Notes under the pieces: generated by a model | The model's database searches: none | Seen by the model: the letters and a program-made list of their open reading frames with translations, nothing else | Told to the model about the DNA's origin: nothing | In this document: piece by piece, positions 3,099 to 22,896 of the stretch | Layout of the letters: the number at the start of each line of letters is the position of its first letter | How positions within the stretch are numbered: position 1 is the first letter of the stretch | Program-made: the position numbers and the translations under genes | Assembly: GCA_020161215.1 (NCBI GenBank) | Contig: JAIUOM010000016.1 | Coordinates: forward strand, 1 to 49,606 | DNA length: 49,606 bases | Reading direction: 5' to 3' | Source of the DNA: Pseudomonadota bacterium | GTDB lineage: Bacteria; Pseudomonadota; Gammaproteobacteria; Burkholderiales; Burkholderiaceae_C

Positions 3099-3731
3099 AT
3101 GGAAACCTCATCCAAGGGTCGGCGGGGCCCGCGGTCGGACAACCGCTTGCCCGAGTTGCTCGATGCGGCGGCGCATTTGTTTGCCAAGCATGGGTACGCC
3201 GCCACGTCGATGCGCGACATCGCGCAGGAAGTGAAGATGCTCGCCGGGTCGGTGTACTACCACTTCCCGTCGAAGGACGACTTGCTCCTGGCGGTGTACG
3301 CGGCGGGCGTGAAGGCCCTGGATGAGGCTTGCGTGGCGGCGATGGCGCGCGAAAGCGAGCCGTGGGCGCGCTTGGAAAGCCTGTGTTGCGCCCACCTGGA
3401 GACGGTGCTGTGTGAAAGCGATTACGCGCACGTGCTGATCCGGGTGCTGCCAAGCGATTTGCCGAAGATTTCGGATCGTCTGCGTGACTTGCGGGCGAAC
3501 CACGAGCGCCTGTTTCGAGAGGCGATCACGGCGCTGCCGCTGCCCGCCGACGCGGACCGGCGCGCCATTCGACTGATGCTGATCGGCGCCCTGAACTGGG
3601 CACCGTTCTGGTTTGACCTTCAAGGGCGCGATTCCCCCCGCGACCTTGCCCGGAAATTTGTTGGCCTGATCAAGGAGAAACCACATGGAGAAACGACCCC
3701 CTCGGGTGATCGTGACAAAGATCGGCTTTGA
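3099..3731 (+). CDS. TetR/AcrR-family transcriptional regulator of the acyl-CoA mutase operon
   Basis: DNA-binding repressor, 210 residues. The N-terminal helix-turn-helix is clear: LLDAAAHLFAKHGYAATSMRDIAQEVKM is followed by AGSVYYHFPSKDDLLLAVY (about residues 21-67). The C-terminal ligand-binding region is of the type that often senses acyl-CoA esters, but the ligand cannot be read from sequence. The ATG at 3099 has no Shine-Dalgarno and lies about 20 nt after the predicted transcription start, so initiation may be nearly leaderless. The 3' end overlaps the following mutase subunit gene by 47 bp, showing that it belongs to the same transcript. It probably controls the whole 3.1-14.3 kb operon, including itself. 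Confidence 0.92.
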   Translation: METSSKGRRGPRSDNRLPELLDAAAHLFAKHGYAATSMRDIAQEVKMLAGSVYYHFPSKDDLLLAVYAAGVKALDEACVAAMARESEPWARLESLCCAHLETVLCESDYAHVLIRVLPSDLPKISDRLRDLRANHERLFREAITALPLPADADRRAIRLMLIGALNWAPFWFDLQGRDSPRDLARKFVGLIKEKPHGETTPSGDRDKDRL

Positions 3732-4107
3732 CGGCCACGATCGGGGCAGCCGCGTCATCGCGGCCTGTCTGCGCGATGCCGGCATGGAGGTGATCTATAC
3801 GCCGCCCTGGCAGGAGATCGGGGCCGTCGTCAAGCTGGCGCTGGAAGAGGACGCCGACGTCATCGGCATCTCGTCACTGGCCACCGATCACCTGATCGTG
3901 CCCAAGCTGATGGAGGCCCTGCGATCGGCCGGCCTGGCCGACGTGCAGGTGATCGTAGGGGGCATCGTGCCCCACAAGGACGAAGCCAAGCTGCTGGAAA
4001 GCGGCGTGGCGCGTGTCTTTCATCCCGGCACCGCGCTCGACGAGGTGGTGGCGCAAGTTCAGGCCTTGACCGTCAAGCGCCGCGAAATGCAGGAGGTTCA
4101 GTCATGA
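3685..4107 (+). CDS. Acyl-CoA mutase small subunit (B12-binding)
   Basis: Cobalamin-binding subunit of an adenosylcobalamin-dependent acyl-CoA mutase, 140 residues, the usual size of the separate small subunit in two-gene mutases such as isobutyryl-CoA mutase. The base-off/His-on signature DGHDRG (residues 16-21, with His18 as lower axial ligand) is followed by the SxL element in [10 protein letters not shown] and the glycine motif [12 protein letters not shown] good ribosome binding site (AAGGAGA) lies before ATG 3685, inside the end of tetR. The stop overlaps the large-subunit start as ATGA, so the two are translationally coupled. The small-before-large order is seen directly. Function as a mutase is secure; the substrate is not. 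Confidence 0.93.
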
Positions 4108-5783
4108 AGCCGATCCACAAGGAAATGCAGCCTTCGAACCCGGACAGTGGCGAGCAGCGCTGGGCCCAGGAATTCGCCCAGGCGGTGCCGGGTGACCCAA
4201 CCTTGATGAACCGTTCGGGCATCCCGGTTAAGCCGCTCTACACCCCGGCCGACCGCCAGGGCAAGTCCTACGACGAAGTCGGCTACCCCGGGCAGTACCC
4301 GTTCACGCGGGGCATCTACCCGTCGATGTACCGCGGCCGCAGCTGGTCGCAACGTCAGCTGATCGGGCTGGGCGTGCCGGAGCAGTACAACGCCCGGGTC
4401 AAGGAGATGCTGGGCCTGGGTGCCTCGGCGCTGTCGCTGATTCCTTGCAACTCGGTGTTTCGCGGCTACGACGCCGACGAGGTGCCGGCGGAACTGCTGG
4501 GCACCTGCGGCACGGTGATCAACAACGCCGACGACATGGCGACCGCGCTGGACGGCGTGCCGATCGACACCATTTCGACGGCCATGAACGATCCGTCCCC
4601 GTTCACGCTGCTGGCGTTCGAGCTGGCGGTGGCCAAGCGCCGCGGCGTGCCGTGGGAAAAGATCACCGGCACGTCGAACCAGAGCGACTGCATTTCGCAC
4701 TTCGTGGCGAACCACATGTTCTTCCGCCTGTCCCTGCAAGGGGCACGCCGGGTCATCGTCGACCACATCAAGTTCTGCAACCAGCAGGTGCCGAACTGGA
4801 ACGCGCTGTCCATCGTCGGCCAGCACATGCAGCAGGCCGGCGCCACGGCGGCCGAAGCCATGGCCTTCACTCTGGCGTCGGGCGTGCAGTACGCCGAGGA
4901 CTGCATCCGCGCCGGCATGGACCCCGATCAGTTCCTGCCGCGCTTCACCTTCTTCTTCGACATCTCGGTCAGCCTGTTCGAGGAGGTCGCCAAGTTCCGC
5001 GCCGGTCGCCGGGTGTGGGCACGCCTGTGCAAGGAGCGCCTGGGCGCCAAGGACCCCCGGTCGTGGCGCTTCAAGTTCCATGGCCAGACCTCGGGCGTGG
5101 ACCTGACGCGCCAACAGCCGCTGAACAACATCGCACGCGTGACCACGCAAGCCATCGCCGGCATTTTCGGTGGTCTGCAGTCGCTGCACACCGACAGCTA
5201 CGACGAGGTGTTTTCCACCCCGACGGCGGAAGCCGCGCGCATCGCCGTGGCCACCCAGAACATCCTGCGTGAGGAGGCCCACCTGACCGACGTGATCGAT
5301 CCGCTGGGCGGCTCCTATTACGTCGAGACCCTGACCGATCAGATGGAAGAGCGCATCAACGCCATCATCGCCATGATCGACGCCGAGGGCGGCATGTACC
5401 ATGCGGTGGAAAAGGGCATCGTCCAGCGCATGATCGGCGAGTCGGCCCTGTCCTTCCAGCAGAAGGTGGATGCCGGCGAGCAGACCATCGTCGGGGTCAA
5501 CGCCTACAAGGTGGACGAAGACCCCGCCACCTATGTGTCGCAGGAGTACCCCAGCGCGCAGCTGATGGGCTCGTACCTGGACCGGCTGGCGGCCTACAAG
5601 AAGAAGCGTTCCCAGTCCGCGGTTCAGAACACGCTGTCGGAGCTGGCCCGATCGGCCAACGACGGCCAGCGCAACGTGTTCGAGCATGTGGTGTTGGCCG
5701 CGGAAGCGGGTGCCACGCACGGCGAGATCTGCGGCACGCTGCGGCGCGAGCTCGGCTTCGGTCAACCCCTGACGATGGTGTGA
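4104..5783 (+). CDS. Divergent acyl-CoA mutase large subunit (substrate-binding TIM barrel)
   Basis: Catalytic large subunit of a B12-dependent carbon-skeleton mutase, 559 residues, the normal size for stand-alone large subunits. Family features retained: [15 protein letters not shown] (65-79), [14 protein letters not shown] (239-252, with His241 matching the active-site His of methylmalonyl-CoA mutase), [28 protein letters not shown] and [12 protein letters not shown]. Other normally strict motifs are changed. The usual GTIQNDILKE is replaced by [10 protein letters not shown] (189-198), the AFDLPTQxGYDSD region by [15 protein letters not shown], and the Tyr before the catalytic His by Gln240. 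These positions line the acyl-CoA pocket, so the substrate is probably not methylmalonyl-, ethylmalonyl- or isobutyryl-CoA. It overlaps both neighbouring genes by 4 nt. Confidence 0.9.
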
Positions 5784-6982
5784 CGGCTTTGAGCGAGCAA
5801 CTGATCGACAGGATCCTGCGCGGCGATCGCCGGACGATCGCCCGGGCCATCAGCAGCCTGGAAGCCGGGGACGCGTTCTCGCACAACGTGCGCGTGGCCT
5901 GCCGGCGGCATGTCGGTCGTGCCCACGTGATCGGCGTCACCGGCCCGCCTGGGGCCGGCAAATCGACCTTGGTCTCGTCCCTGATCGCGGGGTTGCGGGC
6001 GCGTGGAAACACGGTGGCCGTGCTGGCCGTCGATCCGTCCAGTCCGTTCAGCGGCGGGGCGGTGCTGGGCGACCGAATCCGCATGGGCGTGCACCAATCG
6101 GACGACGGGGTGTTCATTCGTTCGCTTGCCTCCCGAGGGCACCTCGGCGGGCTGACGGCGGCGGCGGCCGACGTGATCGACCTGTTCGACGCGGCCGGTT
6201 TCGACACCGTGATCGTCGAAACCGTGGGCGCGGGCCAATCGGAAGTCGAGATCACGCGCTACGCCGACACCCGCGTGGTGGCCTGCCCGCCCGGGCTGGG
6301 TGACGACGTGCAGGCGATCAAGGCCGGCGTGCTCGAAATCGCCGATGTGTTCGTGGTCACGAAAGCGGACCTTCCCGACGCCCGCCGCACGGCATCGGAC
6401 CTCAAATCGATGATCGCGCTGCGGCGCAACACCCAGAACCCGCCGGCGGTGATGCCTGTCTCCACCGTGGACGACAAGGGAATTCCGGAGCTGGTGGCCT
6501 GGCTGGCGGATCGCACGGTGCGTGGCTTGCGGCACGCCGATGGAGGGATCAGGCAGGCGCGCGATCTGGTCGAGCGCTGCCTGGCCAACGACAACTTCGG
6601 CCAGGCGATGGGCATGGAACTGCTCCATGCCTCGCCAGGCCATGTCACCTTGCGCATGCCGGTGACGCGCACGCAGATCAATTTCAACGGCCGCTGCCAC
6701 GGTGGCGCCATCTTCGCGCTGGCGGACATGGCCCTGGGCCTGGCCTGCAATTCACACGGGATGCTGGCCACCCTCATCGACTCCCAGATGAGCATCTCGA
6801 CCGCCTTGGAGGAAGGGGAGCACCTGGTGGCGGACGCCATCGAGGTGGCCCGGTCGAGAAAGATTGGCACCTACCAGGTTCGCCTGACCCGGGCGCGCGA
6901 CGACAAGCATGTGGCGATGCTCAACGGCACGGTGTATGTCCTTAATCAGCCGGTTGACGTGCCAGAGCTGCCCGCGTCATGA
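5780..6982 (+). CDS. MeaB/ArgK-type GTPase fused to a PaaI-type hotdog thioesterase
   Basis: A 400-residue two-domain fusion. Residues 1 to about 250 are a MeaB G-protein chaperone that loads and protects B12 mutases: Walker [10 protein letters not shown] (55-63), [20 protein letters not shown] (83-102), [10 protein letters not shown] (147-155) and TKAD (194-197, usually NKAD). Residues about 265-395 are a PaaI-like hotdog thioesterase: [20 protein letters not shown] (306-325), with Asp316 at the position of the PaaI catalytic Asp. Stand-alone MeaB is about 320-330 residues; its C-terminal dimerisation arm appears to be replaced by the hotdog domain, itself an oligomer former. The GTG start overlaps the mutase stop (GTGA). 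The likely role is mutase maintenance plus hydrolysis of dead-end CoA esters, inferred from the domains. Confidence 0.9.
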
Positions 6983-6994
6983 GGAGCACAAACC

Positions 6995-8947
6995 ATGGCG
7001 ACTGAGCACACTTTCCCGAGATTGCTTCTGGAGCAGGCCGCCCGGCACCCCCAACGCCCGGCGATGCGCGAGAAGAAGTACGGCATCTGGCAGACCATGA
7101 GCTGGTCGGACATGGCGCAACTGGTGCGGACCCTGGCCTGCGGCCTGTCGCAAGCCGGATTGCGCCGCGGCGAGCATCTGGTGGTCATCGGCGCGAATCG
7201 ACCGCGCCTGTATGCGGCCATGTTGGCCGCTCAGTCCCTGGGGGCGATCCCGGTGCCCCTGTACCAGGACGCGGTGGCGGCCGAGTGCGTGTACCCGATC
7301 AACAACGCGGAGGTGCGCTTCTGCGTGGTGGAGGATCAGGAGCAAGTCGACAAGATGCTCGAAATCCGCGAGCAGTGCCCGCAGCTGGAGGGCATCTGGT
7401 ACGACGAGCCACGGGGTCTGCGCAACTACGATCAACCCGGCCTGCAAAGCCTGGACGATCTGGTCAGCGCCGGGGCGGCCTACGCGCAGGAGCATCCCAG
7501 CTTGTTCGACGACGAGGTGGCCATCGGCCAGCCCGACAACGTGGCCGCCATGTTCTTCACCAGCGGCACCACCGGGTACCCCAAGGGCGTGGTGCACAGC
7601 CACCGCACGCTCCTGGATCGCGCCGCCGCGGGCGCCAGCTTCGACAAACTGGGCATTGACGACGAGGTGCTGGCCTACCTGCCCCCGGCCTGGATCGGTC
7701 AGAACATCTTTTCCTACGCCCAGTGGCTGGTGGCGGGCTACCTCGTCAATTGCCCGGAAAGCAGCGCCACCGTGCACATCGACCTGAAGGAAGTGGGGCC
7801 CACCTACTACTTCGCGCCTCCGCGCGTGTTCGAGGGCATGCTGACCAGCGTCATGATCCGCATGGAGGACGCCAGCGCCGTCAAGCGCCGGATGTTCGAC
7901 GCTTTCATGCGTCTGGCGCGTCGGGTTGGCCCCGACCTGATGGACGGCAAGTCGGTCGATGTGCTGGACCGACTCAAGTACCGTCTGGGCGACTGGCTGG
8001 TGTACGGCCCCTTGCGCAACAACCTGGGCATGAGTCGGGTGCGGGTGGCCTACACCGCGGGCGAGGCCATCGGGCCCGATCTGTTCAGCTTCTACCGGTC
8101 CATCGGGATCAACCTGAAGCAACTCTACGGCTCCACCGAGACGGCGGTGTTCGTCTGCCTGCAGCCCGATCACGAGGCGCGGGCCGATACCGTGGGCGTG
8201 CCCTGCGACGGTGTCGAGATCAAGCTCAGCGACTCGGGGGAAATCCTGGTGCGCTCGCCGGGGCTTTTGAAGGGCTACTACAAGAACCCCGAAGCCACCG
8301 CCGAAGTGCTGGACGCGGAAGGCTGGTACCACACCAGTGACGCCGGTTTCATCGACGGCGGTGGGCACCTGAAGATCATTGATCGCGTGAAGGACGTGGG
8401 TCACCTGGTGGGTGGCGACCACGACGGGGCCATGTTCGCGCCGAAGTACGTGGAGAACAAACTCAAGTTCTTCTCGCACATCAAGGAAGCGGTGGCGTTC
8501 GGCGATCAACGCGACAAGGTGTCGGTGATGATCAACGTCGACTTCGACGCGGTTGGCAACTGGGCCGAACGACGCAATCTGCCCTACGCCGGTTACACCG
8601 ATCTCGCGAGCAAGCCAGAGGTGTGCGCGCTGATTCAGGAATGCGTGGAACAGGTCAACGCCGATCTGGCGCGTGACGAACTGCTGGCGGGCAGCCAGAT
8701 CAGTCGATTCCTGGTGTTGCACAAGGAGCTCGACGCCGACGACGGTGAACTCACGCGGACCAACAAGGTGCGCCGGGGTTTCATTGGCGAGAGGTATGCG
8801 GTGCTGGTTGACGCGCTGTACGGCGGCAAGTCCGAGCAGTACGTGGAAACGCAGGTCAAGTTCGAGGACGGGCGCACCGGCTCGGTGAGCGCGACCCTGC
8901 AGATCCACGACGCCAAGACCTTCCAACCGATAAAGGCAGCGGCATGA
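6995..8947 (+). CDS. AMP-forming acyl-CoA synthetase (long-chain/aryl acid-CoA ligase type)
   Basis: Activates a carboxylic acid to its CoA thioester through an acyl-adenylate; 650 residues, in the FadD15-like long group. The ATP motif FFTSGTTGYPKGVVHSHRT lies near residue 188, followed by YGSTETAVFV (A5-like) and GWYHTSDAGFIDGGGHLKIIDRVKD (A7-A8). The C-terminal DGELTRTNKVRRGFI contains the lysine region expected for adenylate formation. A ribosome binding site (GAGGAG) precedes ATG 6995, 12 bp after the MeaB-PaaI stop. Ligases of this type are commonly found just before Liv-type ABC genes in Burkholderiales, as here. In this operon it would supply the CoA ester for the mutase. The acid cannot be named from sequence. 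Confidence 0.93.
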   Translation: MATEHTFPRLLLEQAARHPQRPAMREKKYGIWQTMSWSDMAQLVRTLACGLSQAGLRRGEHLVVIGANRPRLYAAMLAAQSLGAIPVPLYQDAVAAECVYPINNAEVRFCVVEDQEQVDKMLEIREQCPQLEGIWYDEPRGLRNYDQPGLQSLDDLVSAGAAYAQEHPSLFDDEVAIGQPDNVAAMFFTSGTTGYPKGVVHSHRTLLDRAAAGASFDKLGIDDEVLAYLPPAWIGQNIFSYAQWLVAGYLVNCPESSATVHIDLKEVGPTYYFAPPRVFEGMLTSVMIRMEDASAVKRRMFDAFMRLARRVGPDLMDGKSVDVLDRLKYRLGDWLVYGPLRNNLGMSRVRVAYTAGEAIGPDLFSFYRSIGINLKQLYGSTETAVFVCLQPDHEARADTVGVPCDGVEIKLSDSGEILVRSPGLLKGYYKNPEATAEVLDAEGWYHTSDAGFIDGGGHLKIIDRVKDVGHLVGGDHDGAMFAPKYVENKLKFFSHIKEAVAFGDQRDKVSVMINVDFDAVGNWAERRNLPYAGYTDLASKPEVCALIQECVEQVNADLARDELLAGSQISRFLVLHKELDADDGELTRTNKVRRGFIGERYAVLVDALYGGKSEQYVETQVKFEDGRTGSVSATLQIHDAKTFQPIKAAA

Positions 8948-9026
8948 ACGAATCGTTGCGGTTTGGGCGCCAGGCTGTCGCCGTGCACGCTTTGCATTTC
9001 GCGTGGACCGCGGCATGGGCTCGGCC

Positions 9027-9827
9027 ATGAAGCACAAGCAACACGAAGGCCAGGTCGTTCTGGACGTCAAGAACATCAGTTTGCGCTTTGGTGGGGTGAA
9101 AGCGCTGACGGACATCAGCTTCGACGTGCGCGAGCACGAGATCCGCTCGATCATCGGGCCCAACGGCGCCGGCAAATCGTCGATGCTCAACTGCATCAAC
9201 GGCGTGTATGCGCCGCAGGAAGGTTCGATCACGTTTCGCGGGCAGACCTTTCGGCACATGAACAGTCGTCAGGTGGCCAAGATGGGCATTGCGCGCACCT
9301 TCCAGAACCTGGCCTTGTTCAAGGGCATGAGCGTCATCGACAACATCATGACCGGACGCAATCTGCGCATCAAGAGCAGCCTGATCGCGCAGGCCTTCAG
9401 AAATCCCTTCGACATCGGTGGCGCGCAGAAGGAAGAGGAGCGACACCGGGAATTCGTCGAGCACATCATCGATTTTCTCGAGATTCAGGCCTTTCGCAAG
9501 ACACCCGTGGGCCAGTTGCCCTACGGCTTGCAAAAGCGCGTCGATCTGGGCCGTGCGCTGGCCATGGAGCCGCAGGTGCTGCTGCTGGACGAACCCATGG
9601 CCGGCATGAACGTCGAGGAAAAGCAGGACATGAGCCGCTTCATCCTGGACGTCAACGACGAGTTCGGTTCCACCATCGTGCTGATCGAGCACGACATGGG
9701 CGTGGTGATGGACATCTCGGACCGCGTGGTCGTGCTCGACTACGGCAAGAAGATCGGCGACGGCACGCCGGACGAAGTGCGCGACAACGAAGAGGTGATC
9801 AGTGCGTACCTTGGCACCAGCCACTGA
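9027..9827 (+). CDS. livG: Liv-type ABC transporter ATP-binding protein (LivG)
   Basis: First of two ATPases of a branched-chain-amino-acid-type importer. Walker A GPNGAGKSS, the signature region LPYGLQKRVDLGRALA and Walker B VLLLDEPMAGM are all present, and the long LivG-type insertion between Walker A and the signature (IKSSLIAQAFRNPFDIGG) separates it from LivF. The start is uncertain: ATG 9027 (MKHKQHEGQ) is chosen, but in-frame ATG 9015 and GTG 9003 are possible and none has a clear ribosome binding site. The 79-bp gap after the ligase gene has no terminator. Together with the next four genes it forms a complete importer, probably for the acid activated by the preceding ligase. Confidence 0.9.
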   Translation: MKHKQHEGQVVLDVKNISLRFGGVKALTDISFDVREHEIRSIIGPNGAGKSSMLNCINGVYAPQEGSITFRGQTFRHMNSRQVAKMGIARTFQNLALFKGMSVIDNIMTGRNLRIKSSLIAQAFRNPFDIGGAQKEEERHREFVEHIIDFLEIQAFRKTPVGQLPYGLQKRVDLGRALAMEPQVLLLDEPMAGMNVEEKQDMSRFILDVNDEFGSTIVLIEHDMGVVMDISDRVVVLDYGKKIGDGTPDEVRDNEEVISAYLGTSH

Positions 9828-9930
9828 CATGGGTGCCGCACCGCACCAAGAGGCTTCGCAGGTACCCGCTCCGGCGGGCCTGAGCGGCGGGCGGCCTGGC
9901 AAGAAGAGCGAATGAAGGGATAGCAAGACG

Positions 9931-10860
9931 ATGGCCTTTTTTCTCGAAACGCTGCTCGGCGGTCTGATGGCCGGCATGCTCTATTCCTTGGTGGCGCTGG
10001 GCTTCGTGTTGATCTACAAGGCCTCCGGCGTATTCAACTTCGCGCAAGGCGCCATGGTGCTGTTCGCGGCCTTGGCCATGGCCCGCTTCTCGCAGTGGAT
10101 ACCGAACTGGCTGGGCATAGAAAGCAAGTTTCTCGGCAACGTGCTGGCCTTCGTGTTGGCCGGCGCCGTGATGTGGGTGGTGGCCTGGCTGGTCGAGCGG
10201 CTGGTGCTGCGGCATCTGGTGAACCAGGAAGGCGTGACCTTGCTGATGGCCACGCTCGGCATCACCTACTTCCTCGACGGCCTGGGGCAAACCTTGTTTG
10301 GCTCCGACATCTACCAGATCGACGTCGGCATGCCCAAGGACCCGGTGTTGTTGCTGGATGGGGTTTTCGAGGGCGGCATTCTGGTGAATCTGGAAGACGT
10401 CTATGCCGCCTGCGTGGCCGCCCTGCTGGTGCTCGGCCTGTCGCTGTTCTTTCAGAAAACCACCACCGGCAGGGCCTTGCGCGCCGTGGCCGACGACCAT
10501 CAGGCGGCGCAATCCATCGGTATTCCGCTGGACCGGATCTGGGTCATCGTGTGGTTCGTGGCGGGCATCACCGCGCTGGTGGCGGGAATGATCTGGGGCT
10601 CCAAGCTGGGGGTTCAGTTTTCCCTGACCACCTTGGCCTTGCGCGCGCTGCCGGTGATCATTCTGGGGGGGTTGACCTCGGTGCCGGGCGCCATTGTCGG
10701 TGGGTTGATCATCGGCGTCGGTGAAAAGCTGTCCGAGGTGTACCTCGGGCCTTACGTGGGGGGTGGCATCGAGATCTGGTTCGCCTACGTCCTGGCGTTG
10801 GTCTTTCTCCTGGTTCGGCCACAAGGCCTGTTCGGCGAAAAGATCATTGATCGCGTGTAA
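9931..10860 (+). CDS. livH: Liv-type ABC transporter permease (LivH)
   Basis: Inner-membrane permease of the importer, 309 residues with about eight hydrophobic helices. It opens MAFFLETLLGGLMAGMLYSL, followed by ALGFVLIYKASGVFNFAQGAM, the family signature near the first helices. The EAA-like loop TGRALRAVADDHQAAQSIGI and the late glycine-rich VIILGGLTSVPGAIVGGLIIG are typical LivH features. A ribosome binding site (AAGGGA) precedes ATG 9931. About 100 bp separate it from livG; the segment 9828-9930 holds no gene and no clear terminator. Confidence 0.93.
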   Translation: MAFFLETLLGGLMAGMLYSLVALGFVLIYKASGVFNFAQGAMVLFAALAMARFSQWIPNWLGIESKFLGNVLAFVLAGAVMWVVAWLVERLVLRHLVNQEGVTLLMATLGITYFLDGLGQTLFGSDIYQIDVGMPKDPVLLLDGVFEGGILVNLEDVYAACVAALLVLGLSLFFQKTTTGRALRAVADDHQAAQSIGIPLDRIWVIVWFVAGITALVAGMIWGSKLGVQFSLTTLALRALPVIILGGLTSVPGAIVGGLIIGVGEKLSEVYLGPYVGGGIEIWFAYVLALVFLLVRPQGLFGEKIIDRV

Positions 10861-10892
10861 CGCGAAATCGCACTCGATTTAGGAGCCACAGC

Positions 10893-11969
10893 ATGTTCTA
10901 CCGGGAAAACGGTCAACTCAAGACCTCGTACCGCACCGACCAACAGATTTTCACCATCACCCAGGATCGGTGGGCGGTGCTGGCCGTCGTGGTCTTCGCC
11001 TTCGTCGGTGTGCCTCTGCTGGCCGACGAGTACACGCTGCGTGCCATCCTGACGCCGTTTCTGATCCTGTCGTTGGCGGCCATCGGCGTCAACATTCTGG
11101 TGGGCTACTGCGGCCAGATCAGCATGGGCTCGGGAGCGCTGATGGCGGTGGGCGCCTACATGGGCTACAACGCGCTGGTGCGCGTGGACGGCATGCCACT
11201 GATTGTGGCGCTGTTGATCGGTGGTTTCTGCGCGACGCTGGTTGGCATGTTCTTTGGCATCCCCAGTCTGCGGGTCAAGGGCCTGTACCTGGCCGTGGCC
11301 ACGCTGGCGGCGCAGTTTTTCTGCGACTGGATGTTCCTGCGCATCGGCTGGTTCACGAACAACGCCCCTTCGGGGAGCGTGTCGGTGTCCAACCTGCGCA
11401 CCCTGGGGTGGTCGATCGACTCACCTTACGACAAGTATTTGTTCTGCCTCGGCTTCGTGGTGGTGTTTGCGTTATTGGCCAAGAACCTGGTGCGCTCGGC
11501 CATTGGGCGCGAGTGGATGGCCATTCGGGACATGGACGTCGCGGCCGAGGTGATCGGCATCAGGCCCATGTACGCCAAGCTCAGCGCGTTCGCGGTGAGC
11601 AGTTTCATCATCGGCGTGGCGGGGGGGCTGTGGGGCTTTGTGCACCTGGGCGCCTGGGAGCCGGCCGCGTTCTCCATCGACCGCAGCTTTCAGCTGCTGT
11701 TCATGGTCATCATCGGCGGGCTGGGCTCCATCATGGGCAGCTTTTTTGGCGCCGCCTTCATCGTGATGGTGCCGATTCTTCTGAATCAATTCTTGCCCTC
11801 TCTCGGCACCCTGGTCGGTATTTCGATCTCGACCGCGGTCCTGGCGCACATCGAATTCATGTTGTTCGGCGCGTTGATTGTGTGGTTCCTGATCGTCGAG
11901 CCGCACGGCCTGGCACGGCTGTGGAGCATTGGTAAACAGAAACTGAGGATTTGGCCGTTTCCTCATTGA
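10893..11969 (+). CDS. livM: Liv-type ABC transporter permease (LivM)
   Basis: Second inner-membrane permease, 358 residues. An extended hydrophilic N-terminus (about 27 residues) precedes the first helix. Family features include ILSLAAIGVNILVGYCGQISMGSGALMAVGAY, FGIPSLRVKGLYLAVATLAAQFF, and the coupling loop IGREWMAIRDMDVAAEVIGI, followed by IIGGLGSIMGSFFGAAFIV. A strong AGGAG site lies before ATG 10893, 32 bp after livH. It pairs with LivH to form the transmembrane pore and has no internal breaks. Confidence 0.93.
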   Translation: MFYRENGQLKTSYRTDQQIFTITQDRWAVLAVVVFAFVGVPLLADEYTLRAILTPFLILSLAAIGVNILVGYCGQISMGSGALMAVGAYMGYNALVRVDGMPLIVALLIGGFCATLVGMFFGIPSLRVKGLYLAVATLAAQFFCDWMFLRIGWFTNNAPSGSVSVSNLRTLGWSIDSPYDKYLFCLGFVVVFALLAKNLVRSAIGREWMAIRDMDVAAEVIGIRPMYAKLSAFAVSSFIIGVAGGLWGFVHLGAWEPAAFSIDRSFQLLFMVIIGGLGSIMGSFFGAAFIVMVPILLNQFLPSLGTLVGISISTAVLAHIEFMLFGALIVWFLIVEPHGLARLWSIGKQKLRIWPFPH

Positions 11970-12040
11970 CAAGCCGGGAGGGTGCATCAGAAATCGGTCG
12001 TGGGTATTTGCGCTTTGTTTAATCCAAAGGAGACATGAAC

Positions 12041-13366
12041 ATGAAAAAGACACGCGCGCTGGCAATGGTGACTGCCGCGCTGATGATGGGCGCCGTTGCC
12101 GCCCCAAGCTCTGCGCAGGACAAGCAGCAGTTCTTTCCCTTGCTGACCTTTCGCACTGGCCCTTACGCGCCCAGTGGCACCCCCTGGGCGAATGGTTTTG
12201 TCGATTACTTCAAACTCGTCAATGCCAAGGGTGGCATCAACGGCGTGCGCGTGCTCTGGGAGGAGTGCGAAACCGGTTATGCGACCGACCGCGGCGTGGA
12301 GTGCTATGAGCGCATGAAGGACAAGAACGGTGGGGCCACCCTGTTCCAGACCATGTCCACCGGCATCACCTTTGCGTTGACCGAGCGCGGGGCCGTCGAT
12401 GGCGTGCCCATCTTGACCCCCGGCTACGGCTTGAGCGAAAGCGCCGACGGCGAAGTGTTCAAGTGGAGCTTCCCGATCGCCGGCACGCATTGGGCGTCGG
12501 CCGACACGCAGATCCAGTACGTGGGCGCGAAGCTCGGCGGCATGGATAAGCTCAAGGGCAAGAAGATCACCTTGCTTTACCACGACAGCCCTTATGGCAA
12601 GGAAGCCATTCCGGTGCTGACCGAGCGCTCCAAGCAGCATGGCTTTGAGTTCGCGGCCATTCCCGTGTCGCATCCCGGCCTGGATCAAAAGGCCGCCTGG
12701 CTTCAGATACGGCAGACACGCCCGGACTATGTGCTGCTGTGGGGCTGGGGGGTGATGAACTCCACGGCGCTGAAGGAAGCGCAATCCACTCGCTACCCAC
12801 GCAATCAGATTGTCGGCGTCTGGCCGTCTGGATCCGATTCCGACGTCAAGGGCGTGGCCGGCGCGGAAGGGTACAGCGCCGTGCTGATCCTGCCAGGCCC
12901 CGGATTTGGCTCCAAGATCGCCAAGGATGTGCTGTCGACCTTGCACGCCAAGGGCGAAGGTTCGGGCCCCAAGGACGAAGTTGGCTCGGCCCTGTACATG
13001 CGCGGCCTGATGAACGCCATGTTCGCGGTCGAAGGTGTGCGGCGTGCCCAGGAGAAGTTTGGCAAGGGCCAGGTGATGACGGCGGCGCAAGCGCGTTGGG
13101 GCTATGAAAACCTGAACATCGACCTGAAGCGCCTGCAAGAGCTGGGCATCGACGACGTGATGCGGCCCGTGGCCACCACGTGCAAGGATCACATGGGGCC
13201 TTCGTGGGCACGTGCGTACACATGGAAGGGCAGCGCCTGGGAAGTCAGCTCGGACTGGCTGCAAGCCGATCCGAAGGTCCTGAACCCGTTGATCAAGGCG
13301 TCTGCAGACAAGTACCTGGCCGACAAGAAGTGGTCGCGTCGTGCGGCACAGGACTGCCAGAGCTGA
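12041..13366 (+). CDS. Liv-type ABC transporter periplasmic substrate-binding protein
   Basis: Captures the imported substrate in the periplasm; about 441 residues. The N-terminus is a signal peptide (MKKTRALAMVTAALMMGAVA, cleavage near SSA-QDK). The type-1 periplasmic fold is seen in NGFVDYFKLVNAKGGINGVRV, the ECYERMKDKNGGATLFQTMS region and ITLLYHDSPYGKEAIPVL. Two ATGs lie close together; the AAGGAG at 12027-12032 is only 2 nt from the first (12035) but 8 nt from the second (12041), so 12041 is preferred. It is larger than LivJ/LivK and resembles the aryl-acid/amide-binding branch more than amino-acid binders, which is a judgement by eye. Confidence 0.92.
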   Translation: MKKTRALAMVTAALMMGAVAAPSSAQDKQQFFPLLTFRTGPYAPSGTPWANGFVDYFKLVNAKGGINGVRVLWEECETGYATDRGVECYERMKDKNGGATLFQTMSTGITFALTERGAVDGVPILTPGYGLSESADGEVFKWSFPIAGTHWASADTQIQYVGAKLGGMDKLKGKKITLLYHDSPYGKEAIPVLTERSKQHGFEFAAIPVSHPGLDQKAAWLQIRQTRPDYVLLWGWGVMNSTALKEAQSTRYPRNQIVGVWPSGSDSDVKGVAGAEGYSAVLILPGPGFGSKIAKDVLSTLHAKGEGSGPKDEVGSALYMRGLMNAMFAVEGVRRAQEKFGKGQVMTAAQARWGYENLNIDLKRLQELGIDDVMRPVATTCKDHMGPSWARAYTWKGSAWEVSSDWLQADPKVLNPLIKASADKYLADKKWSRRAAQDCQS

Positions 13367-13462
13367 ACTTCAGGCGCGTCGGCTTGTCTTGACCCCTCAA
13401 CCGATTCGGGGCGCACCGGGTGGATACCCGTCGGCGCCCCGGATCCCTCCAAGGACCCTCGC

Positions 13463-14272
13463 ATGAGTGCATCCTCGCCGGTTCTCAATGTCAATGGCAT
13501 CGAGGTCATCTACAACCACGTGATCCTGGTGCTCAAGGGCGTGTCGCTGACCGTCAAGGACGGGCACATTGCCGCCATCCTGGGCGGCAATGGGGCAGGT
13601 AAGACGACCACGTTGCGTGCCATCTCCAACCTGCTCAAGGGTGAGCGCGGCGAGGTGACCAAGGGCAGCATCGAGCTGCGGGGCGAGCGCATCGAGAACC
13701 TGACCCCCGCCGAATTGGTGCGGCGCGGGGTGGTGCAGGTGATGGAGGGGCGGCATTGCTTTGCGCACCTCACGATCGAGGACAACCTGCTGACGGGCGC
13801 CTACACACGTCACGACAAGGGCGAGATCGCTCGCAACCTGGAGAAGGTGTACGCCTACTTTCCGCGCTTGAAAGAGCGGCGCGGCAGCCAGGCCGCCTAC
13901 ACCAGCGGCGGCGAGCAACAGATGTGCGCGATCGGGCGGGCCCTGATGTCCAACCCCAACGTGGTGCTGCTGGATGAGCCTTCGATGGGCCTGGCCCCGC
14001 AAATCGTGGAAGAGGTGTTCGAGATCGTCAAGGACCTCAACCAGAAAGAGAAAGTCACCTTCTTGCTGGCCGAGCAGAACACCAATATGGCCTTGCGCTA
14101 CGCCGACTATGGCTACATCATGGAAAGCGGACGCATTGTCATGGACGGTTTGTCCGCCGACTTGCGCGACAACGAGGACGTCAAGGAGTTCTATCTCGGC
14201 ATGGGCGGCGGAGAGCGCAAGAGCTTCAAGGATGTGAAGAGCTACAAGCGCAGGAAGCGGTGGTTGGCGTGA
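13463..14272 (+). CDS. livF: Liv-type ABC transporter ATP-binding protein (LivF)
   Basis: Second ATPase of the importer, 269 residues. Walker A GGNGAGKTT, Q-loop VVQVMEGRHCFAHLTIEDNL, signature TSGGEQQMCAIGRALM and Walker B VVLLDEPSMGLAP are intact. The VMEGRHCF sequence and the short spacing between Walker A and signature are typical of LivF. A C-terminal extension of about 25 basic residues (ERKSFKDVKSYKRRKRW) goes beyond the usual length. It is the last gene of the operon; a strong terminator follows 44 bp downstream. Confidence 0.93.
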   Translation: MSASSPVLNVNGIEVIYNHVILVLKGVSLTVKDGHIAAILGGNGAGKTTTLRAISNLLKGERGEVTKGSIELRGERIENLTPAELVRRGVVQVMEGRHCFAHLTIEDNLLTGAYTRHDKGEIARNLEKVYAYFPRLKERRGSQAAYTSGGEQQMCAIGRALMSNPNVVLLDEPSMGLAPQIVEEVFEIVKDLNQKEKVTFLLAEQNTNMALRYADYGYIMESGRIVMDGLSADLRDNEDVKEFYLGMGGGERKSFKDVKSYKRRKRWLA

Positions 14273-14388: not shown

Positions 14389-17199
<2,811 letters not shown>

Positions 17200-18680: not shown

Positions 18681-18819
18681 TCCCGCATTGTGAACGCCTG
18701 GCTGCGTGCGCCGACCGGCCCAGGCGGCACAATGGCGTCCGCCGCTCGGGCGTCGGCGCCGCCGCGGCTTGCCGCGTTGTGAAGCGGCGTTGTGTGCAAT
18801 TCGGCCTGCCGCCTTTCCG

Positions 18820-22896
<4,077 letters not shown>

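Follow-up and report, generated by a model that had tools for sequence, protein, structure and literature searches.

Why should the G-protein chaperone of a B12-dependent mutase end in a thioesterase? The question is raised by one gene in a 49,606 nt stretch of DNA, contig JAIUOM010000016.1 of assembly GCA_020161215.1 from a Pseudomonadota bacterium in Burkholderiaceae_C (the whole stretch is referred to as the window). Its 400 amino acid (aa) product joins a GTPase (G) domain of the MeaB/ArgK type to a hotdog domain of the PaaI type, and the gene overlaps that for the large subunit of an adenosylcobalamin (AdoCbl)-dependent acyl-coenzyme A (CoA) mutase. This MeaB-PaaI fusion is a real, conserved arrangement, in which the thioesterase domain begins where other MeaB proteins carry a C-terminal dimerisation arm. 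Comparison of sequences suggests a purpose for it: the hotdog domain would replace the arm and would also serve as a valve reversing the ligase of the operon, a reading that we put just short of an even chance.

How the G domains of MeaB/MMAA pair while B12 enzymes are loaded and repaired bears on methylmalonic aciduria in humans, and the C-terminal extension of MeaB takes part in dimerisation (PMC9974510; papers are cited by PubMed Central, PMC, number). In human MMAA, the arm is described as the hinge of the pairing motion (PMC10356863). Natural variants that lack the arm and carry an enzyme that probably self-associates would reveal whether the hinge, or mere closeness of the G domains, is what is needed.

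The fusion gene and its mutase

As the initial annotation had it, the gene is a single frame of 400 codons, uninterrupted from GTG to stop, with both domains in phase (Table 1). Pfam detects PF03308 (MeaB; 264.5 bits, cut-off 23.1) at residues 21–243 and PF03061 (4HBT; 32.1 bits, cut-off 20.6) at residues 303–374. Among the NCBIfam models, TIGR00750 (MeaB) scores 273.6 bits, above its cut-off of 240.75, and TIGR02286 (PaaI) scores 90.2 bits over residues 275–387, below the equivalog cut-off of 118.9. When the Protein Data Bank was searched, the N-terminal half resembled MeaB/MMAA chains and the C-terminal half the PaaI chains of T. thermophilus and E. coli. The motifs were also found where they had been placed, the Walker A sequence at residues 55–63 and CHGG...LAD...ACNS at residues 306–325, and in the latter Asp316 is presumably the catalytic residue. 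The P-loop, the HGG and the Asp are all retained at each of the 32 fused loci described below. In-frame GTG and TTG codons occur at residues 230–250, and GTG 239 has GGAG a few bases 5′, though it is unlikely that a separate hotdog protein is made from an internal start.

With MeaB/MMAA the fusion shares the G domain, the P-loop, the switch II and switch III residues and a location beside an AdoCbl mutase gene, but it has a hotdog thioesterase in place of the C-terminal arm. The distinction from IcmF drawn initially also holds. In IcmF, a MeaB-type G domain is likewise joined to another enzyme of its system, but that enzyme is the mutase, whereas in the window the mutase subunits are separate genes and a thioesterase is joined instead; as the protein reaches 128.7 bits on the IcmF model, whose cut-off is 1500, membership of that group was rejected. 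The fused domain resembles PaaI in its hotdog fold and HGG...LAD motif, and is presumably an acyl-CoA thioesterase like it, but differs in falling below the PaaI cut-off and in grouping apart on the hotdog tree. A literature search that did not reach most subscription journals found no description of a MeaB fusion to a thioesterase, PaaI or XdhC.

The search for this architecture in other genomes, which the initial annotation had suggested, was made by scanning GTDB contigs. Of at least 524 relatives 80 were kept, and the query included the hotdog domain, so the proportions are biased toward fusions. Adding the window and five loci from plasmids gave 86 classified loci (L001–L005, from the window's own genome, were excluded), at which both domains lie in one frame in 32 (window included), a separate PaaI gene is adjacent in 18, and PaaI is missing from 36. 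The fused loci include L034, where the match ran past the stop and Pfam shows both domains in a single frame, and two near-identical pairs (L031/L032 and L016/L017). A mutase of the type of Xaut_5043 (see below) is present at 62 of the 86, namely all 32 fused loci, all 18 with an adjacent PaaI and 12 without PaaI.

Counts that started from the mutase, though they share many strains with that scan, found it in 15 of 399 genomes of the window's family, and the 14 that could be assessed (own genome included) all have the fusion. Here L139, the same gene as L034, was likewise counted as fused; L140 (G1430), where the contig ends within the G domain, and G1144, at a contig edge, were excluded. A sample of the class yielded the mutase in 4 of 369 genomes, one being the fused locus of the window itself, and the others one fused, one adjacent and one unassessed. 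The family and class samples also contain between three and five further genomes from the genus of the window, and these have no Xaut_5043-type mutase. Six of 426 matching plasmid records are at least 60 % identical to the mutase, with the fusion in one, an adjacent PaaI in three and no PaaI in two.

The ratio of nonsynonymous to synonymous substitution rates (dN/dS) is low in both domains. When the window is paired with L006, the G domain gives 0.12, the hotdog 0.18 and the linker 0.37, and values in other pairs are 0.03–0.29 for the G domain and 0.01–0.19 for the hotdog. None of the 12 pairs reached 0.3 in the G domain and none of 11 reached 0.2 in the hotdog, and in seven of the ten pairs with a value that of the linker exceeded both.

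The operon runs on the forward strand from a TetR-family regulator through the B12-binding subunit, the mutase, the fusion and an AMP-forming ligase to a Liv-type transporter (9003–14272). The mutase large subunit is 66 % identical to Xaut_5043, encoded on a plasmid of Xanthobacter autotrophicus Py2, and Xaut_5045–5034 have the same order of TetR, B12 subunit, mutase, MeaB, PaaI, ligase and Liv-type transporter genes. The Py2 locus differs in that two genes which overlap, Xaut_5042 and Xaut_5041, encode MeaB and PaaI separately, in an extra PaaK-like gene that precedes the ligase gene and follows that for PaaI, and in a PaaI nearer to the canonical one. MeaB and PaaI are also separate neighbours in a Sulfitobacter operon (L088). 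We take Xaut_5043/5044 to be the pivalyl-CoA mutase of Banerjee's group.

The best-scoring solved structure for the window's mutase subunit is that of 2-hydroxyisobutyryl-CoA mutase HcmA (4r3u), from which it differs at the aligned substrate positions (L86, I113 and N203 in the window, with their roles assumed). L86 and N203 are invariant in alignment A2, comprising 25 of the 62 mutases, and occupy the places of a Tyr and an Arg (R207) that presumably contact the substrate in methylmalonyl-CoA mutase, where we take R207 to bind the free carboxylate. If these roles are right, the invariance argues against a dicarboxylic substrate, and a methylmalonyl-type mutase was rejected since N203 stands in place of the Arg. 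The indoleacetate (iaa) mutase operon was set aside, as the iaa mutase acts on malonyl- or succinyl-type CoA esters (PMC8360864). The initial reading needs qualifying here, in that the most likely client of the chaperone is an enzyme of the pivalyl-CoA mutase type rather than methylmalonyl-CoA mutase. The Sulfitobacter operon adjoins genes for an acyl-CoA dehydrogenase, a biotin-dependent carboxylase and a hydratase, a set that would fit isovaleryl-CoA as the mutase product, though only the hydratase scores above a curated cut-off and its model specifies no pathway. The fusions could help to trace in genomes how acids with a quaternary carbon, pivalate among them, are degraded.

The position of the dimerisation arm

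In the unfused MeaB proteins of mutase operons, the G domain is followed by an arm of approximately 65–75 residues, and in the alignment the hotdog of the fused proteins starts at that same point. A hidden Markov model (HMM) of 84 positions, the first 39 representing the end of the G domain, was built from 43 short-tailed MeaBs; L021, L042, L057, L068 and L127, in which the motif was not found, were omitted from the test. All 43 score 45.6–100.3 bits with matches extending to position 60 or beyond, and when each was left out in turn the median was 67, the weakest being L090 (13.0) and L078 (15.6). In contrast, the 40 MeaBs with a C-terminal extension, the window included, score no more than 13.9 bits, nearly all of it from positions 1–39, and in all 40 the stretches past position 39 contribute at most 2.9 bits. 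The claim that the hotdog occupies the place of the usual arm is borne out by both the alignment and the model. No protein among those tested with the arm HMM was without both an arm and a partner.

Residues that act across the MeaB dimer interface have been conserved. In MeaB, D182, Q185 and K188 of switch III of one protomer touch the nucleotide of the other, and equivalents of D85, R101, E147, Q153, D175, Q178 and K181 of the fusion stabilise the active dimer (PMC9974510). These residues are invariant in alignment A1, comprising 26 of the 32 fused proteins (L010, L011, L017, L032, L033 and L087 omitted), as are H307, G308, G309 and D316 of the hotdog domain. Hence, the fusion probably still forms the active G-domain dimer, without an arm.

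When 90 G domains were placed on a quickly built tree, the distribution of arm versus extension takes three changes, of which well-supported branches force only one, and that of all eight labels takes nine. The arm was therefore possibly lost once, with partners exchanged later, and independent swaps of the arm in each lineage are weakened as an explanation. On a tree of the mutases (57 of the 62, those of 450 aa or longer) the fused state requires three changes, and branches with good support make two of these necessary. There, L062 lies within a fused clade (support 85/89) despite having an armed MeaB and a 4HBT_2-type gene between the mutase and MeaB genes; its position on the G-domain tree was not resolved.

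A proposed role for the fused thioesterase

Proteins of the hotdog fold form dimers and tetramers, which makes this domain a candidate substitute for the arm. In our proposal, the fusion would serve as G-protein chaperone to the AdoCbl-dependent mutase of pivalyl-CoA mutase type that the operon encodes, its arm replaced by a PaaI-type thioesterase that is a separate neighbouring gene in other lineages. The hotdog would keep two G domains together, allowing the cross-protomer GTPase state that would be used for AdoCbl loading and for clearing damaged cobalamin. It would also hydrolyse the acyl-CoA made by the ligase whenever the mutase, a B12-radical enzyme, is inactive or overloaded, sparing CoA, and tethering would hold this valve at the mutase and in constant ratio to the chaperone. 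The model for such a valve is PaaI, a homotetramer made of dimers (PMC9493321), which reverses the ligase PaaK and so prevents overloading in phenylacetate catabolism (PMC4498308).

The history of the thioesterases bears on the second part of this proposal. On the hotdog tree (L100 and L106, with no HGG in the excised piece, were omitted), the fused domains cluster with the adjacent PaaIs of Rhodobacterales, of one gammaproteobacterium and of L077 (89/88), and the adjacent PaaIs of Xanthobacter and Bradyrhizobium cluster with canonical PaaIs (97/92), several branches being long. From these two groups, PaaI-type thioesterases seem to have joined the mutase operon at least twice. Genes of the 4HBT_2 type are present in loci L062, L077 and L124, and that thioesterases of differing kinds were recruited is the strongest indication that hydrolysis of CoA esters matters to the mutase. 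The fusions would also suggest that fragile B12 mutases tend to be accompanied by clearance of CoA esters. As the source of the domain, a captured canonical PaaI of phenylacetate catabolism was rejected, since the fused hotdog groups apart and the window's own genome has a separate PaaI (at C62; TIGR02286 147.7 bits, above the cut-off).

Several points weigh against the double role proposed for the hotdog. The armed L090, when left out of the arm model, scored no higher than the best extended protein, and the 40 extended proteins may trace to one loss of the arm and not be 40 independent cases. The NKxD motif of the fusion's G domain reads TKAD. At 12 of the 62 loci with an Xaut_5043-type mutase there is no PaaI, L062 having its 4HBT_2 gene instead, which indicates that the thioesterase is dispensable. 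The substrate assignment depends on our assumption as to the identity of Xaut_5043/5044. Finally, the partner in one further MeaB fusion is CutA1 (98.9 bits; L127:2992–4290, reverse strand), which is a trimer.

It is also conceivable, though unlikely, that the fusion serves co-expression only, with independent domains, G domains that pair transiently as in IcmF, and a hotdog that is simply the tethered thioesterase of the operon. The overlapping neighbouring MeaB and PaaI genes of other lineages, the variable length and sequence of the linker and the possibility of a single arm loss are all in keeping with this, as is IcmF itself, in which the G domains are unpaired in the resting dimer and the active state arises by oligomerisation (PMC10356863, PMC10481361). 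Such pairing by oligomerisation is the chief alternative to the hotdog as provider of the G-domain dimer. However, a simple fusion should have retained the arm, which is missing from 40 of 40 extended MeaBs whatever the partner, and the arm test found no protein lacking arm and partner alike.

Distinctly improbable, in our judgement, is the coupling put forward in the initial annotation, seen here as a GTP-gated editing function: once the chaperone had opened the mutase for repair, the thioesterase would remove CoA esters that are wrong or stalled. The two activities would share one client, their motifs are intact at all of the fused loci, and the G domains of IcmF do wedge the mutase open (PMC10481361). 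Against this, separate PaaI or 4HBT_2 genes accompany the same operon elsewhere, so that a tether is not required, and there is no evidence of coupling. A ligase-reversing valve would fit these observations as well as GTP-coupled removal and requires no coupling to GTP.

We see only a slight chance that the hotdog completes some other pathway step, freeing the acid of the mutase product or of another substrate, and that the mutase is not a pivalyl-CoA mutase. The sub-threshold PaaI score and the separate grouping of the hotdog would be compatible with such a step, but the CoA ligase and importer of the operon fit catabolism, as do the neighbours of the Sulfitobacter operon, with the reservation on their scores given above. 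Essentially no credence attaches to a sequencing or assembly artefact, for although many loci are from metagenome-assembled genomes, two of which (labelled Desulfovibrionaceae and Propionibacterium) are probably misbinned, as they group with betaproteobacteria in the tree, the same fusion occurs at independent loci, in isolates and on a complete Diaphorobacter plasmid, with low dN/dS in both domains, which refutes this reading and rules out the stop or frameshift between the domains that the initial annotation had allowed for.

Other partner domains and neighbouring features

The partners of the 40 extended MeaBs are 31 PaaI hotdogs, six XdhC domains, and one each of a GalT-like, a nitroreductase-like and a degenerate hotdog domain. 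XdhC was confirmed by Pfam for L049 (7983–9803) and for L120 (2313–3431; arm HMM 11.0 bits), a later addition to the 40, and was assigned by sequence likeness in L060, L070, L072, L074 and L083, which group with L049 on the G-domain tree. The C-terminal part of L119 (arm HMM 1.8 bits), likewise additional to the 40, has no Pfam match. The XdhC fusions may link a MeaB-like GTPase to the maturation of molybdenum enzymes. Within the stretches fetched, the MeaB-XdhC/CoxI loci have no Xaut_5043-type mutase. At L049, the fusion has as neighbours a gene for NnrS and one that is MobA-like, the latter with a molybdopterin-binding match that is weak.

The nitroreductase-like domain (PF00881, 30.4 bits) is fused to MeaB at L111:1897–3213 (reverse strand; L126 is the same place), downstream of an Xaut_5043-type mutase (71 %) and with genes for a separate PaaI and for an acyl-CoA dehydrogenase after it; this locus is not among the 62 counted above. 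The GalT-like protein, so labelled by eye, is fused to MeaB in a mutase operon (L044:803–2623) and is a separate gene near MeaB at L077:9336–10388, 54 % identical to the L044 part. Neither the L044 part nor the L077 gene has a Pfam match, and the match to a GalT chain has E = 0.27. In L036:7758–9191 the hotdog is degenerate, having lost HGG and kept the Asp, but is still recognised by a hotdog HMM (57.4 bits versus at most 6.6 for 500 shuffles); no mutase match was found in the 17 kb of this locus.

At least two of the partners, PaaI and the GalT-like protein, are separate neighbouring genes at other loci. We tentatively suggest, while rating it as rather less than an even bet, that in one branch of MeaB the position of the arm is a socket for oligomerisation whose occupant can be exchanged. 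The arm would have been lost once or a few times, self-associating partners (the PaaI hotdog, XdhC, the nitroreductase-like domain, CutA1, the GalT-like protein and even a hotdog without HGG) would then have been swapped for one another, and the partner would both pair the G domains and supply an enzyme for the client.

Table 1. Coordinates in the window of the fusion gene, its domains and motifs, and the other genes of the operon
Feature	Position	Strand	Remarks
MeaB-PaaI fusion gene, 400 aa	5780..6982	+	GTG start overlaps mutase stop
MeaB/ArgK G domain, residues 21–243	5840..6508	+	PF03308, profile 2–232 of 273
Walker A/P-loop GPPGAGKST, residues 55–63	5942..5968	+	GxPGxGKS in 32/32 fused loci
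Switch region, residues 171–183	6290..6328	+	D175, Q178, K181 align with MeaB D182, Q185, K188
Linker, residues ~246–267	6515..6580	+	Where the C-terminal arm starts in unfused MeaBs (alignment)
PaaI-type hotdog thioesterase domain, residues ~268–390	6581..6949	+	PF03061, TIGR02286, PaaI chains in Protein Data Bank
CHGG...LAD motif, residues 306–316, including Asp316	6695..6727	+	HGG and Asp in 32/32 fused loci
TetR-family regulator	3099..3731	+	PF00440, PF17932
B12-binding small subunit of mutase	3685..4107	+	PF02310, TIGR00640
AdoCbl-dependent acyl-CoA mutase large subunit, Xaut_5043 type	4104..5783	+	PF01642, 566.7 bits
AMP-forming acyl-CoA ligase	6995..8947	+	PF00501
Liv-type ABC transporter ATPase, LivG-like	9003..9827	+	Below LivG equivalog cut-off
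Liv-type permease, LivH-like	9931..10860	+	PF02653
Liv-type permease, LivM-like	10893..11969	+	PF02653
Periplasmic substrate-binding protein	12035..13366	+	PF13458
Liv-type ABC transporter ATPase, LivF-like	13463..14272	+	Below LivF equivalog cut-off

Some of the related operons have further features. In Diaphorobacter (L087:22226–25167), a second mutase cluster comprising a hydratase, a mutase, a B12 subunit and a CoA transferase lies just past the fusion operon, and the gene table of the Diaphorobacter plasmid lists the fusion protein simply as MeaB. On a Sphingobium plasmid (L089:7265–20702) the TetR-B12-mutase-MeaB genes are duplicated, with IS6100 and ISSp1 transposases in between. A Rhodobacterales locus (L039:2749–4053) has a frame of 433–434 aa with two tandem TetR-type matches upstream of the mutase operon; similar tandem-TetR frames are found in L041, L042, L045, L046 and L047, and a gene of equal length is at that place in L088.

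Beyond the operon in the window, 14389–17199 (reverse strand) encodes part of a B12-dependent methionine synthase (pterin-binding, B12-binding and activation domains) and adjoins the operon, and 18706–22896 (forward strand) is a frame of 1396 aa that combines an AMP-binding domain with hexapeptide repeats at the C-terminal end.

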